Source: Halorientalis sp. LT38 (GTDB lineage Archaea; Halobacteriota; Halobacteria; Halobacteriales; Haloarculaceae). From it: a stretch of 64,000 nt of DNA. The DNA lies in NCBI RefSeq assembly GCF_037031225.1, contig NZ_JAYEZN010000001.1, positions 682,001-746,000 of the forward strand. The letters run 5' to 3'. Below the pieces are notes generated by a model. That model saw only the letters and a program-made list of their open reading frames with translations, had not been told where the DNA came from and ran no database searches. The position numbers and the translations under genes are program-made. Each line of letters begins with the position of its first letter. Positions within the stretch are counted from its first letter, which is position 1. Of this stretch, positions 14,546 to 54,519 are shown piece after piece.

Positions 14546-14700
14546 GGCGACCACCGTCGACCGAGCCGACTCTGTCCCGCCAGCATACGCGAGAGTGCGG
14601 GAGGCTGGAACTTAAGCCGTTCCCTCGTGGTCCGTCGCGCTGCGAGTCGGGAACTGAAAATCCGAATTCGTTACTCGCGGGCCTGTGGCCCGTTCGTTTT

Positions 14701-14798
14701 CGAGGTTGCGTCCGCAACCTCGCTACTCACGAAGACGCCGGGAGAGCGAGCTCTCCCGAGCCATTCGTTCGTGACCTTCCGGTCACTCACGAAGACGC
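14701..14798. repeat. Hairpin cluster and 14-bp direct repeat after sufD
   Basis: Seen directly: a 10-2-10 palindrome CGAGGTTGCG-tc-CGCAACCTCG (14701-14722), a 9-2-9 palindrome CGGGAGAGC-ga-GCTCTCCCG (14739-14758), and a 6-4-6 palindrome GTGACC-ttcc-GGTCAC (14771-14786) that overlaps the sufD stop. ACTCACGAAGACGC occurs at 14725-14738 and again at 14785-14798 inside sufD, so the last codons of sufD are duplicated 60 bp downstream. On the minus strand the first hairpin is preceded by GAGTAGCGAGG, also found at 42922-42931. Confidence 0.7.
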
Positions 14799-15994
14799 TT
14801 CGCGATCAGCCCCGCGAGGTCCTCGCGGAACTCGTCGACCGCGACCTCGGAGAGGACGGGCTCGAAGAAGCCCTCGACCAGCATGTTCTCGGCGACCTGC
14901 GCGGGGATGGCCCGCGAGGTCATGTAGAACATGTCCTGTTCGTCGACCTGGCCGACCGTCGCGGAGTGGCTGGCCTCGGTGTCGTGGTTGTTGATGATCA
15001 GCTTCGGGGAGGCGTCGGCCTCGCTCTCGTCGGAGAGCATCAGCGTGTTCTCGCGCTGGTAGGAGTTGGTGTCCCAGGCCTCCCGGCCGACGTCCTGAAC
15101 CCCCTCGTAGACCGACCGTGCGTGGTCGTCGAGGACGCCACGCGTGATCAGGTCGGCCGTCGTGTGTTCGGCCTCGTGCCAGACTCTGGAGGCGAGGTCG
15201 AAGTGCTGGTCCTCGTGGCCGAAGAAGGCCCCGACGATCTTCGATTCCGAGGAGTCGCCGAGCAGTCGCGTCTCGACGCTGGTCTTCGTGAGGCGCGACC
15301 CGATGTTGCCCTCGATCCAGTTCACCTGGCCGTACTGGCCGGTGTGCCCGCGCTTGACCTGGAAGTTGTACGTCTCCTCGTCCAGGTTCTGCAGCGCGCC
15401 GTACTGGACGGTCGCGTTCTCGCCGGCGACGGCCTCGACGACGCCGCTGTAGTAGCGCTCGCCCTCGGCGTCGTCACCGGTCTCCTGCCGTTCGAGGATG
15501 GTGACCGAGGACGATTCCTCGGCGATCACGAGCGTGTAGTTGAACAGCGCGCGGCTGTTCATCCGGGTCCGGATCTTCACGTCCTCTGCGTCGACGCCCT
15601 CGGGGACGTAGACGACCGTCCCTGCCGAGAACAGCGCCGTCGAGAGCGCCGTGAGGTAGTCGCGCTGGGGGTCGACGACGCTGCCGAATTGCTCCTCGAT
15701 CAGGTCGCCGTGTTGGTCCAGCGCGTCGGACCAGGAGAGCACGTCGACGCCCTCGGCGTCCACGCGGTCTTTCTCCTGAGCCATCTCCAGGGGGTCGACG
15801 AAGCGCTCGTAGTCGAGCGCGTCGAGGTTCGTCCACTCCCGGCCCGGCGTCTGGATGACGGCGGGCATGTCGAGCTCTCCGAGCGCGTCGAGCGCGTCGA
15901 GGCGCGTCTCCAGCAGCCACTCGGGCTCGTCGAGCTGTTCGCTGATCTCCGTTACCTGCTCCTCCGTGAGGTTTGCTTGTACCTGCGTGCTCAT
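14783..15994 (-). CDS. sufD: Fe-S cluster assembly protein SufD
   Basis: 403 aa. The SufBD beta-helix core is visible (VVYVPEGVDAEDVKIRTRMNSRALFNYTLVIAEESSSVTI...). The late block HDTEASHSATVGQVDEQDMFYMTSRAIPA, where SufB/D subunits contact, is intact. SufD pairs with SufB and SufC in the cytosolic scaffold that builds Fe-S clusters. It is the last gene of the sufCBD operon, 14 nt after sufB. Its 3' end runs into a hairpin cluster. Confidence 0.94.
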   Translation of the reverse strand: MSTQVQANLTEEQVTEISEQLDEPEWLLETRLDALDALGELDMPAVIQTPGREWTNLDALDYERFVDPLEMAQEKDRVDAEGVDVLSWSDALDQHGDLIEEQFGSVVDPQRDYLTALSTALFSAGTVVYVPEGVDAEDVKIRTRMNSRALFNYTLVIAEESSSVTILERQETGDDAEGERYYSGVVEAVAGENATVQYGALQNLDEETYNFQVKRGHTGQYGQVNWIEGNIGSRLTKTSVETRLLGDSSESKIVGAFFGHEDQHFDLASRVWHEAEHTTADLITRGVLDDHARSVYEGVQDVGREAWDTNSYQRENTLMLSDESEADASPKLIINNHDTEASHSATVGQVDEQDMFYMTSRAIPAQVAENMLVEGFFEPVLSEVAVDEFREDLAGLIAKRLRE

Positions 15995-37869: not shown

Positions 37870-37992
37870 ACCCTACTCCCGGGTACCGACCCCGATAATG
37901 GTAGTGGATTTTCCGGGGAGCGAGGCGTCGCACTGAATAAGAGAGCGACCGTCCGCGCGAGCGGAGCGAGCGCGGTTCACTGGCCGAGCAGA

Positions 37993-38035
37993 GCGGGACC
38001 GAAGGTCCCGCAGGCAGCCGGCGCGACGCGCCGGC
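37993..38035. repeat. Two adjacent G+C hairpins in the 37.9-38.2 kb spacer
   Basis: GCGGGACC-gaa-GGTCCCGC (37993-38011, 8-3-8) is followed by GCCGGCGCG-a-CGCGCCGGC (38017-38035, 9-1-9). They immediately precede the multi-hairpin element at 38051. The spacer 37870-38172 has no coding frame I can support. Confidence 0.75.
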
Positions 38036-38050
38036 GACGAAGCGAGGTCA

Positions 38051-38166
38051 GCCTTTTTCGCCCACGTTCGCGAGAGCGACGCTCTCGGGAGCCCACCAGA
38101 GATCTTCGATCTCTGGAGACGTTTCTGCACCGAGTGGTCGCGGAGCGACCCGAGGTGGAAAAAGGC
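38051..38166. repeat. Multi-hairpin element, copy 1 (homologous to 53536-53651)
   Basis: Terminal inverted repeats GCCTTTTTC (38051-38059) and GAAAAAGGC (38158-38166) enclose three hairpins: around CGAGAGC-gac-GCTCTCG (38071-38087), CCAGAGATC-ttc-GATCTCTGG (38096-38116) and GGTCGC-gga-GCGACC (38136-38150). It ends 6 nt from the stop codon of the ferritin-like gene. The copy at 53536 has the same first 21 nt, the same AGCCCACC spacer and the same GACGTTT spacer, with paired changes in the stems. Confidence 0.85.
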
Positions 38167-38172
38167 GGTTGT

Positions 38173-38628
38173 TCAGTCGCCGCGGTACTCTTTCTGAAAC
38201 CCGCGGAACTCCGTCCGGTGGGCCTCCTCGTCGGCCAGGATGGTGACCGCGATGTCCTCGGTCACCGGATCGTCGCCGTCCTGGGCCGCGTGGACCAGCG
38301 AGCGGTAGGTCTCGATCGCGTCGTTCTCGGCGTCGAGGACGCCCTCGATGACGCTCAGCACGTCCGTCGAGTCCTCTGGCGGCTGCAGCGAGTGCTGGTG
38401 GGCCTCGAACGTCGCCGACCCCGGCGGGCGCGCGTCCAGCTGTTTCAGCCGCTGGCCGAGCATCTCGGCGTGGCCCAGTTCCTCCTGGAGGTCCCCCTGC
38501 AGGCTCGCCTTGACCTCCTCGGCGCTCACGCCGTCCAGCACGATCGAGTTCGTCAGGTAGTTCATGACCGTCTCGATCTCGTCCCCGTACGCGCGCTGCA
38601 GCAGGTCGATCACTTCGTCGTTCGTCAT
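38173..38628 (-). CDS. Ferritin-like domain protein
   Basis: 151 aa from the ATG at 38628; a GTG two codons upstream is also open. Four helices carry the diiron pattern: GDEIETVMNYL (~15-25), EELGHAEML with ExxH (~49-57), ENDAIETYRSL (~100-110) and DEEAHRTEF with ExxH (~134-142). This matches the ferritin/bacterioferritin-like superfamily common in haloarchaea. Iron storage or peroxide defence is likely. It is followed by the multi-hairpin element. Confidence 0.8.
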   Translation of the reverse strand: MTNDEVIDLLQRAYGDEIETVMNYLTNSIVLDGVSAEEVKASLQGDLQEELGHAEMLGQRLKQLDARPPGSATFEAHQHSLQPPEDSTDVLSVIEGVLDAENDAIETYRSLVHAAQDGDDPVTEDIAVTILADEEAHRTEFRGFQKEYRGD

Positions 38629-38731
38629 ACCCACGGATTGGGCGCGAAGCCACTTAGACGCCCGTATAAGTCGAAATCGGGTCAGGTCCGACCCCGGTCA
38701 GGTCCGCCGCCGCACACGTCGGGCGCCGGGA

Positions 38732-40232: not shown

Positions 40233-40301
40233 GAGCGCAGCCCGAGTGATTGAGGCGCGCGACAGCGGAGCGCGCCGACCGATCGAGGGCTGATTTTTGT
40301 A

Positions 40302-40364
40302 CTAAATTTTTGCCCGAGCGAGCGGTCCGCTCGTCGGACCGCGAGCGACGGTGGAAAAATTTAG
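40302..40364. repeat. Stop-abutting element with A/T terminal repeats and inner hairpin
   Basis: CTAAATTTTT (40302-40311) and AAAAATTTAG (40355-40364) form perfect terminal inverted repeats around GCGGTCC-N7-GGACCGC (40322-40342). The right end is 2 nt from the stop codon of the PAC2 gene. Architecture resembles the elements at 38051 and 53536, though the sequence differs. On the gene strand it begins with the TTTTT expected of archaeal transcription termination. Confidence 0.7.
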
Positions 40365-40366
40365 AC

Positions 40367-41101
40367 TCATTGGAACATCCCCAGGGGCTTGGCCTGGGAG
40401 CTATCGTCGGTGCCCTGGCTCATCTGCTGGGCGAGTTGCTGGCGGGCGTCTGCGATCTCTTCGGCCTGGTCGACCAGTTTCTGCGTGTCGACCTCGACGT
40501 CGGCGATCGGGCCGATGGCGTCGAGGAGCAACACGCGGGCGGCCTCTGGATCCGGGAACTGGGCGTTGGACTCGACCACGAGACCGAGACTGTCGAGGCC
40601 GTGGTCTTCGGCGTAGGACAGCAGGCTGCCGGTCGGGCCGCTGACGAACCCGCCCCGTGGCGGGGCCGAGACGTCGTGGCGTTCGAGTATCGATCCCGCG
40701 TCGCCGGTGGCGACCCCGTGGAGTTCCGGCCGCCCGTCTTTCTCGGTGGGCATGCCGCTGAGGTACAGGGGGAGGACGTCGTGCTCGGCGAGCCAGCCGG
40801 AGAGACAGGCCGCGAACTCGCTGGCCTCGTTGGGGGAGACCGGGACGTCGCTCTGGAGGGCCAGGAGGTTCCGGTCGTGGTCGGCGTAGATCCGGACGGG
40901 CGGGACCACCGCGCGCTCGCCCTCGTGATAGACGGCCACGTCGGGCAACCCCTCGCAGCGACAGGCGGCGTAGTAACTCATGTCGAAGGTCTCGACGAGG
41001 TGGTCCGTCGCGATCTTGCCGACGAGGCCGACGCCCGGCAGGCCCTCCACGAGGACTGGCGACTCCAGCGTGCGGTCGTCGTGGACTTCCACGTGTGCCA
41101 T
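40367..41101 (-). CDS. Proteasome assembly chaperone (PAC2) family protein, second copy
   Basis: 244 aa from the ATG at 41101; the frame is open 41 codons upstream without similarity. PAC2 signature VLVEGLPGVGLVGKIATDHLV at ~16-36, then LSGMPTEKDGRPELHG and VESNAQFPDPEAARVLL. The C-terminus is glutamine-rich (DARQQLAQQMSQGT). It is paralogous to 2621-3376 but not close. A role with the proteasome is inferred. Confidence 0.82.
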   Translation of the reverse strand: MAHVEVHDDRTLESPVLVEGLPGVGLVGKIATDHLVETFDMSYYAACRCEGLPDVAVYHEGERAVVPPVRIYADHDRNLLALQSDVPVSPNEASEFAACLSGWLAEHDVLPLYLSGMPTEKDGRPELHGVATGDAGSILERHDVSAPPRGGFVSGPTGSLLSYAEDHGLDSLGLVVESNAQFPDPEAARVLLLDAIGPIADVEVDTQKLVDQAEEIADARQQLAQQMSQGTDDSSQAKPLGMFQ

Positions 41102-41210
41102 ACCGGCAGGTGGGGCGGCAGCGAGTAAAACCCCGCGGGCGAGGAAGCCAGTAGACGCCTCGCGGCGCGAAGCCCGGTGCAACGGGTTCTCACAGCGGCG
41201 GAATACCGCG

Positions 41211-41217
41211 AATATTA
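41211..41217 (+). promoter_or_regulatory. TATA element of the SDR gene
   Basis: AATATTA is centred about 31 nt before the ATG at 41245. It supports that ATG over the internal one at 41299. Confidence 0.45.
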
Positions 41218-41244
41218 TGTGCACCGCTGGTCGAACGATCGGTA

Positions 41245-53535: not shown

Positions 53536-53651
53536 CCTTTTTCGCCCACGTTCGCAAGAGCGAAGCTCTTGCGCAGCCCACCAGAAATCTCCGATTTCTG
53601 GGGACGTTTTTGGCCGGGGGGTTCGCGGAGCGAACCCCCCGGCGAAAAAGG
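53536..53651. repeat. Multi-hairpin element, copy 2 (homologous to 38051-38166)
   Basis: CCTTTTTCGCC (53536-53546) and GGCGAAAAAGG (53641-53651) are perfect 11-bp terminal inverted repeats. Inside: GCAAGAGC-gaa-GCTCTTGC (53554-53572), CCAGAAATC-tcc-GATTTCTGG (53581-53601) and a 13-3-13 stem centred on GGTTCGC-gga-GCGAACC (53614-53642). The element ends 4 nt before the korB stop codon. Compared with copy 1, stem changes occur in pairs that preserve base pairing. Confidence 0.85.
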
Positions 53652-53655
53652 TGGT

Positions 53656-54519
53656 TTAGTAAAACTCTCTCACGAGGTCCATCGCGTCCTCGGGCGCGCC
53701 CTCGGGGATGTCGGCCATGGACTCGGTCAGGCCCTCCCGTTCGTCGAAGGGGACGGACTGGTCGTCCTGGTAGATGACGCCCTGGTACTCCTTGTCGGCG
53801 TCGAGGATGGCGGCCTTGGCGTCGTCGTAGTCGTTCGGGTCGTGGTCGGTCTCGGAGAGGTCGACGATGGTGTCGCGGAAGTAGTCGTAGGTGTCGACGT
53901 CGTTGAAGGTGACGCAGGGGCTGTAGACGTTGACGAAGCCGAAGCCGTCGTGCTCGATGGCCTGTTTGACGATCTCGGTGTGGCGCTGGGAGTCCGAGCT
54001 AAAGGACTGGGCGATGAAGGTCCCGCCGGCAGCCAGCGCGAGCGCGAGGGGGTTGACCGGGGGCTGTTTGGGGCCGTCGGGAGAGGTCGAGGTCTCGAAG
54101 TCCTCGCGCGAGGTGGGGGAGGCCTGCCCCTTGGTGAGACCGTAGATGCGGTTGTCCATGACCACGTAGGTCATGTCGACGTTCCGTCGGACGGCGTGGA
54201 CGAAGTGGCCCGCGCCGATGGAGTAGCCGTCGCCGTCGCCGCCCGCGACCATCACTTCGAGGTTCGGGTTGGCGAGTTTCGTCCCGATGCCCACGGGGAG
54301 CGCGCGGCCGTGGACGCCGTGGAGCGCGTAGCTGTGCATGTAGGTGCCGATCTTCCCGGAGCACCCGATGCCGGCGACGACGAACGTGTTGTCCGGGTCG
54401 TTGCCGGTGTTCGCGAGGGCTTTCATCATGCCGTTCATGGTCCCGAAGTCGCCGCAGCCGGGACACCAGGTCGGTTGCTTGTCGGACTTGAAGTCCGTGA
54501 ATCGGATGTCGGAGCTCAT
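53656..54519 (-). CDS. korB: 2-oxoacid:ferredoxin oxidoreductase subunit beta (KorB)
   Basis: 287 aa. The N-terminal CPGCGDF and GIGCSGKIGTYMH supply Fe-S cysteines; a further Cys is in YSPCVTFND. The TPP/Mg motif is GGDGDGYSIGAGH, followed by VVMDNRIYGLTKGQASPTS. It oxidises 2-oxoglutarate or pyruvate-type 2-oxoacids to acyl-CoA with ferredoxin. It follows korA by 2 nt. Which 2-oxoacid is used cannot be fixed from this alone. Confidence 0.93.
   Translation of the reverse strand: MSSDIRFTDFKSDKQPTWCPGCGDFGTMNGMMKALANTGNDPDNTFVVAGIGCSGKIGTYMHSYALHGVHGRALPVGIGTKLANPNLEVMVAGGDGDGYSIGAGHFVHAVRRNVDMTYVVMDNRIYGLTKGQASPTSREDFETSTSPDGPKQPPVNPLALALAAGGTFIAQSFSSDSQRHTEIVKQAIEHDGFGFVNVYSPCVTFNDVDTYDYFRDTIVDLSETDHDPNDYDDAKAAILDADKEYQGVIYQDDQSVPFDEREGLTESMADIPEGAPEDAMDLVREFY

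Follow-up and report, generated by a model that had tools for sequence, protein, structure and literature searches.

The repeated element found twice in the window, the whole 64,000-nucleotide stretch of DNA analyzed here, is genuine and well outside what chance would give, although it proves to be a composite of nested parts. We consider it probable, at roughly 80%, that each copy combines a putative bidirectional terminator with M1, a 56-bp mobile module located in the 5' arm of the terminator hairpin. The source genome (G000, 3.58 Mb) belongs to the genus Halorientalis.

Anatomy of the two copies

Both copies are present at 38051-38166 and 53536-53651, as the initial annotation had reported, and they have in common the opening sequence and the spacers that it described. 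They adjoin the stop codons of two minus-strand genes, a ferritin-like gene (38173-38634) and korB (53656-54519), and fold well beyond shuffled sequences (DNA z of -4.6 and -8.4). The paired stem changes between the copies are exactly those previously listed. What did not survive is the view of the 116 nt as one element: hairpins 1 and 2 (hp1 and hp2) were inserted into an arm of another hairpin, the one enclosing hairpin 3 (hp3).

On the plus strand, to which all feature coordinates below refer, M1 occupies 38066-38120 in copy 1 (55 nt, GTTC-hp1-AGCCCA-hp2-AGAC; 71.6 bits and E 4.8e-15 with the R2 covariance model) and 53550-53605 in copy 2 (56 nt, GTTC-hp1-CAGCCCA-hp2-GGAC; 82.8 bits, E 1.1e-17). 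Sequence and folding place the copy 1 hairpins at 38071-38087 (hp1, CGAGAGC-GAC-GCTCTCG) and 38096-38116 (hp2, CCAGAGATC-TTC-GATCTCTGG); the stem of hp1 pairs as listed before but is mismatched at the base (GCGAGAGC / GCTCTCGG). In copy 2, sequence, folding and the loop survey place hp1 (CGCAAGAGC-GAA-GCTCTTGCG, with a C(GNA)G triloop) at 53553-53573 and hp2 (CCAGAAATC-TCC-GATTTCTGG) at 53581-53601.

The host hairpin of copy 1 spans 38062-38168 and reads CCAC, M1, GTTTCTG, hp3 (38136-38150) and GGAAAAAGGCGG. Its base covaries family-wide, and in this copy the basal CCAC stands opposite GCGG, giving one mismatch. The host hairpin of copy 2 (53546-53654) reads CCAC, M1, GTTTTTGG, hp3 (53613-53643) and GAAAAAGGTGG, with basal CCAC/GTGG, and is kept 3' of korB in congeners. 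Plus-strand transcription would enter a TTTTTC tract at 38054-38059 in copy 1, in the form of the Haloferax termination-site motif (PMC7237163), and at 53538-53543 in copy 2. On the minus strand of copy 1, CCGCCTTTTTCC comes after the ferritin-like stop codon at 38173.

The extent first assigned to the copies holds as far as the coordinates go, but the copies also run upstream into further hairpins. In copy 1 this upstream part (37948-38050) consists of a CGCGAGCGGAGCGAGCG hairpin, the linker GCGGTTCAC (37972-37980) and a hairpin before the T-tract, with the same part order at many loci. The hairpin before the T-tract itself contains another inserted double hairpin at about 37993-38041. This insert, which splits the hairpin 5' of copy 1 and was also observed at locus L065, has the form AGAG-nGGGACC..GGTCCCn-CnGGCAGCC-GGCGCnACGCGCCGGC; the own genome holds one more copy of it, immediately before an M1.

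A third, divergent T5..T5-hairpin-A5 unit without M1 lies at 40288-40366, beside the minus-strand stop codon of gene 40367-41224. Intergenic tandem hairpins at 14675-14805 give weak M1-model matches on both strands (19 and 17 bits). The own genome contains a third full copy of the element and many partial ones, and matches at E <= 1e-6 were obtained in 7 of 7 other genomes of the genus. A pattern scan of contigs returned two loci, both from Halorientalis persicus.

The M1 module and its insertion sites

By sequence comparison, M1 is an insertion with defined boundaries that occurs at unrelated sites, has empty counterparts, is spread order-wide and prefers hairpin arms. It is a non-coding 56-bp module made of hairpins 1 and 2, GTTC-hp1-GCAGCCCAYC-hp2-GGAC. 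A covariance model of hp1+hp2 was built to collect copies, and 101 of these were analyzed with their flanks: the left end is GTTC in 89 and the right end GGAC in 81, and the length is exactly 56 nt in 60. The left flank is CAC, GAC, GGC or AAC in 85 copies, and G is the first base of the right flank in 93. The terminal inverted repeat is weak, 4 nt and imperfect (GTTC versus GTCC). T-tract (T5/A5) units account for 49 of the 101 sites, and the remainder lie elsewhere.

Downstream of korB, the own genome reads CGCCCAC[M1]GTTTTTG, whereas in the sister species G003 CGCGCAC runs directly into GTTTTTG, a contiguous empty site orthologous to copy 2 (L124). At this locus G006 has a short form and G002 and G005 have other double hairpins; most congeners with a readable locus retain the host hairpin, and M1 is present only in the own genome. 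At the ferritin-like locus the whole unit of about 240 nt occurs in the own genome only and is absent in G002, G003 and G005, for which gain in the own lineage would be the simplest reading.

M1 also interrupts TnpB genes (L115, L118, L185) and IS6-type transposase genes (L181, L209), and lies within an IS605 end hairpin. Joining the flanks across M1 gave open frames at the loci where this was tried (L118, L181, L209); uninterrupted homologues with 80% or more coverage of these joined queries occur in 29, 69 and 89 plasmid records. Target duplication is absent: the ends GTTC..GGAC are fixed, the flanks variable and the empty sites contiguous. Two different double-hairpin inserts were observed in a TnpB-like gene at L205.

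Covariance-model searches found further copies in most related genomes; their absence was among the outcomes that the initial annotation had named as counting against it. The hp1+hp2 model matched 96 of 116 family genomes, and the M1-only model at E <= 1e-6 matched 49 of 53 genomes of the same order and none of about 242 other genomes of the phylum, where individually unlisted negatives were counted as outside the order because the genome list was sorted by kinship. Own-genome copy counts derive from searches, and the M1-only model gives six strong copies there. Named carriers among plasmids include Salinigranum, Haladaptatus, Natronorubrum, Natrinema, Haloterrigena and Natronomonas pharaonis; the annotation tables at two plasmid carriers, which cover genes only, contain no feature marking the module. 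There was no M1 match in phage records, no exact-pattern hit in viral contigs and, in the literature collection searched by text, no paper with the M1 sequence.

A recent burst of M1 in genus g19 was considered and dropped, since the many g19 copies sit in one larger repeated composite and are therefore not independent jumps. In this high-copy composite (G347, G291, G211; L253-L291) M1 occupies a fixed place, GGGACTCAAAGGGGCAGTCGCGAGG..GCAGGC-M1-GACGTAAGCACCGCAG, and triloops differ among otherwise near-identical copies, in both orientations.

The host hairpin as a putative terminator

Alignment of copies with their flanks gives the unit order as a CGAGCG..-type hairpin, the linker CGGTTCACC, a GC hairpin, GCCTTTTTCGCCCAC, the hp1-spacer-hp2 segment, GTTTTTGCGCGAGTGG, hp3 and CCCGAGCGGAAAAAGGTGG. 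Shorter versions without hp1+hp2 have an uninterrupted CTTTTTCGCCCACGTTTTTG. The shared unit pattern has nine exact cases in the own genome and none in a reversed-pattern control. The tetramer 5' of GTTTTT is complementary to the tetramer 3' of AAAAAG in 54 of 68 units, and in 32 of 32 that bear M1, compared with a mean of 26 and a maximum of 34 complementary when the right ends were re-dealt; the basal forms are CCAC/GTGG, CGAC/GTCG, GAAC/GTTC, CGAA/TTCG, GCAC/GTGC and CCAT/ATGG. Because these flanking tetramers covary as complements, the host unit is read as a long hairpin. In all 32 units of the set that carry hp1+hp2, the insert lies within the 5' arm of this hairpin, between the covarying base tetramer and the T5 arm.

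This T5/A5 hairpin stands directly 3' of stop codons and is entered through TTTTTC on either strand. Both copies in the window have on both strands the T-stretch ending in TC, 3' of a stop codon, that marks archaeal T-stretch terminators. TTTTTC is an experimentally supported termination motif in Haloferax; there the intergenic sites consist of T-stretches with a final C, and a reporter gave 95% termination from a T-stretch (PMC7237163). On the plus strand, the proposed arrangement would present the GC hairpin, then TTTTTC, then the long hairpin with its T5/A5 stem, and on the far side TTTTTC would directly follow the stop codon of the minus-strand gene. Since TTTTTC is presented on both strands, transcripts from either side would meet a T-tract. 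The host unit is probably a bidirectional terminator, its termination activity being predicted from these sequence features. In the own genome, units usually lie behind a plus-strand gene, next to a minus-strand stop codon, or both, as judged from crude gene calls. A sigma-70/intrinsic-terminator scan gave no match; its consensus is bacterial and unsuited here. The unit resembles the T-stretch intergenic terminators of Haloferax volcanii in having TTTTTC at gene 3' ends, here on both strands, and differs in that the putative terminator is a dispersed, sequence-conserved hairpin beyond a bare T-stretch (PMC7237163). A bidirectional terminator and a palindromic mobile repeat had been offered as separate options by the initial annotation; both appear likely to be true together, with M1 inserted in the host hairpin.

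Other double hairpins were observed as well. A second module, GTTCGAAAGGCG..CGTCATCACGAGAGAGC..GCTCTCTCGAAC, with clear terminal inverted repeats, occurs downstream of korB in G005 (L129) and in the flank of L119. A third (L123, L143, L145, L051) has the structure TAGTG-hairpin-CATACCATGCGAACGG-hairpin-GAGCAGA, with CATACCATGCGAACGG as a constant spacer, and is also nested in terminator hairpins; at L059 the second module is located inside a hairpin of the third. At about 2137040-2151751 of G000:C1 (L005, L006, L007) a cluster of terminator-like units lies beside direct repeats of gene 3' ends, such as GAGGAGTTCGGCGGCGAAGTGCCGGAC..TGATCGGCTAACTCTCTCC, perhaps as tandem gene-end cassettes.

Stem covariation

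Standard pairs fill 98.4% of the pair cells across 46 distinct modules, and both-side changes number 117 cells versus 28.5 in shuffles (reached in 0 of 500), with the caveat that copies were collected using a structure-aware model, which favors paired copies. The paired changes between the two window copies thus hold when further copies are added, and the initial annotation was right to see in them a structure under selection or copying. In a set of 96 distinct modules, Watson-Crick pairs make up 1507 of 1536 cells, with 7 cells G-T and 6 A-C. If selection acted on an RNA from one strand, G-U should be tolerated more readily than A-C; M1 shows no such difference, which argues against selection on RNA. 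Three-base loops are present in 226 of 245 hairpins, all but one of them (225) closed by C-G, and the triloop is GNA or its complement TNC in 162 of the 226 versus 4 of 25 in gene-dense controls. Loops are found in both orientations (for hp2, GAA in 25 and TTC in 31). C(GNA)G is a known extra-stable DNA mini-hairpin (PMC4686876), and we infer that the stems of M1 are kept as DNA hairpins and not as conserved RNA.

Two accounts would dispense with a mobile DNA module. A structured RNA, either an sRNA or a 3' UTR element with compensatory changes selected in the transcript, would fit the strong covariation and the placement at gene 3' ends, but we regard it as highly improbable: a search of the window against Rfam gave no match at or above the gathering score, hp1+hp2 also occur outside 3' UTRs and even within transposase genes, korB orthologues exist without the module, G-U is not in excess of A-C, and the triloops are typical of stable DNA hairpins and not of RNA tetraloops. 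The mobility of the module and its unrelated contexts likewise disfavor the RNA element that had been among the options. Alternatively, there could be a terminator only, whose extra hairpins grow or shrink through slippage or template switching. The T5/A5 unit does hold about half of the copies collected, and hairpin stems in units vary as whole perfect palindromes. This account nevertheless appears very doubtful, as a 56-bp module with identical ends is found in coding sequences and IS605 end hairpins and the M1 consensus is common across the order.

Target geometry and possible mobilization

Of the 48 M1 sites outside terminators, nine fall in perfect hairpins with a stem of 8 bp or more and a loop of 3-4 nt. 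All nine have the junction exactly 3 nt 5' of the loop, versus 6 of 11603 control sites; because some of them are related (L186/L193; L200/L215/L223), about six count as independent. Because all these junctions have the same position relative to the loop, the target of M1 may be a folded strand. Terminator insertions have their junction at the arm base and not 3 nt from a loop, so that a single rule does not fit every site. In the proposed composite, M1 inserted without target duplication between [G/A]C and G in the 5' arm of the host hairpin. Movement may proceed by way of hairpin-folded single-stranded DNA, the target likewise being recognized as a hairpin, and the module may be mobilized in trans by a recombinase or transposase. 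A broader reading, which we put forward tentatively and at somewhat less than even odds, is that M1 represents a class of mobile mini-elements whose target is defined by the fold of a DNA hairpin and not by sequence. Such elements would insert into the 5' arm at a fixed distance from the loop and give rise to new hairpins that take up further modules in turn; archaeal terminators would thereby grow hairpin-into-hairpin.

No mobilizing enzyme was found. The Y1 transposase (PF01797) is absent from the own genome, and within genus g19 G211 and G025 carry 10 and 6 M1 copies with no Y1, while G221 has two Y1 and no M1; Y1 is disfavored as the mobilizer, its presence showing no association with M1 copies in the genomes compared. 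A search of plasmids with the left half-module for an autonomous parent, in which some of the matches were inspected, recognized no longer element, and the matches fall mainly in records that also carry the complete module.

These results bear on two readings in which M1 would depend on a Y1 enzyme. In the first, M1 would derive from an IS200/IS605 element as a terminal-only form (PATE), with a Y1 transposase moving it. M1 is close in size to the 52-bp terminal-only forms in Haloquadratum (PMC3119063), has two hairpins, lacks target duplication, and has a right end, GGAC, similar to the left flank NRC, as a Y1 target rule would predict. Such an origin seems unlikely, if a serious candidate, given that no autonomous element with M1 ends was found, that the ends of the Y1 elements in a small survey are unrelated to M1 and that Y1 genes do not track it. 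In the second, which is improbable, a domesticated Y1 transposase (RAYT) would move M1 as a REP/REPIN-like repeat: M1 is short, palindromic, dispersed, non-coding and largely extragenic, with stems kept as hairpins, but its consensus (GTTC..GGAC) has no GTAG or CGTC tag, the copy number in the own genome is low (six strong copies), and no Y1 or RAYT relative is present there.

Relation to known elements

Compared by description and not by sequence, the nearest known kind to M1 appears to be the small mobile repeats of Haloquadratum, which insert in palindromes without duplication by an unexplained mechanism (PMC3119063). Like SMR-A of Haloquadratum walsbyi (HqIRS42, HqIRS43, HqIRS55), M1 is haloarchaeal and non-coding, has ends that appear, from a small survey, unrelated to known transposons, makes no target duplication, lies within palindromes of other mobile elements (hairpin arms, an IS605 end hairpin) and, at 56 nt, is too short to encode a transposase. 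Unlike SMR-A, it is about half as long (56 versus about 110 bp), is distributed order-wide with about half of the collected copies in putative terminator hairpins, and has a weak 4-nt terminal inverted repeat (GTTC/GTCC), not a prominent one; because of this last difference we liken M1 to SMR-A without filing it there (PMC3119063). PATEs, the IS605 terminal-only elements of haloarchaea, are similar in size (about 52 bp), near-terminal palindromes and absence of target duplication (PMC3119063); they differ in that for M1 a small survey found no IS605 parent with its ends and no tie to Y1. With REP/REPIN/BIME sequences (PMC2817692, PMC3116915), M1 shares short, dispersed palindromes with hairpin stems, often at gene ends, and it departs from them in having no GTAG/CGTC tag or RAYT, a low copy number and sites also inside genes.

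In 2011, how the small mobile repeats of haloarchaea are mobilized was described as enigmatic. M1 offers a precise, order-wide case, and since its ends, target rule, empty sites and structural signature are defined, the question of mobilization is now testable. Covarying stems alone are no proof of a functional RNA, and the covariation of M1 looks DNA-born. In these haloarchaea, putative terminators at gene ends act as landing sites for nested mobile hairpins.
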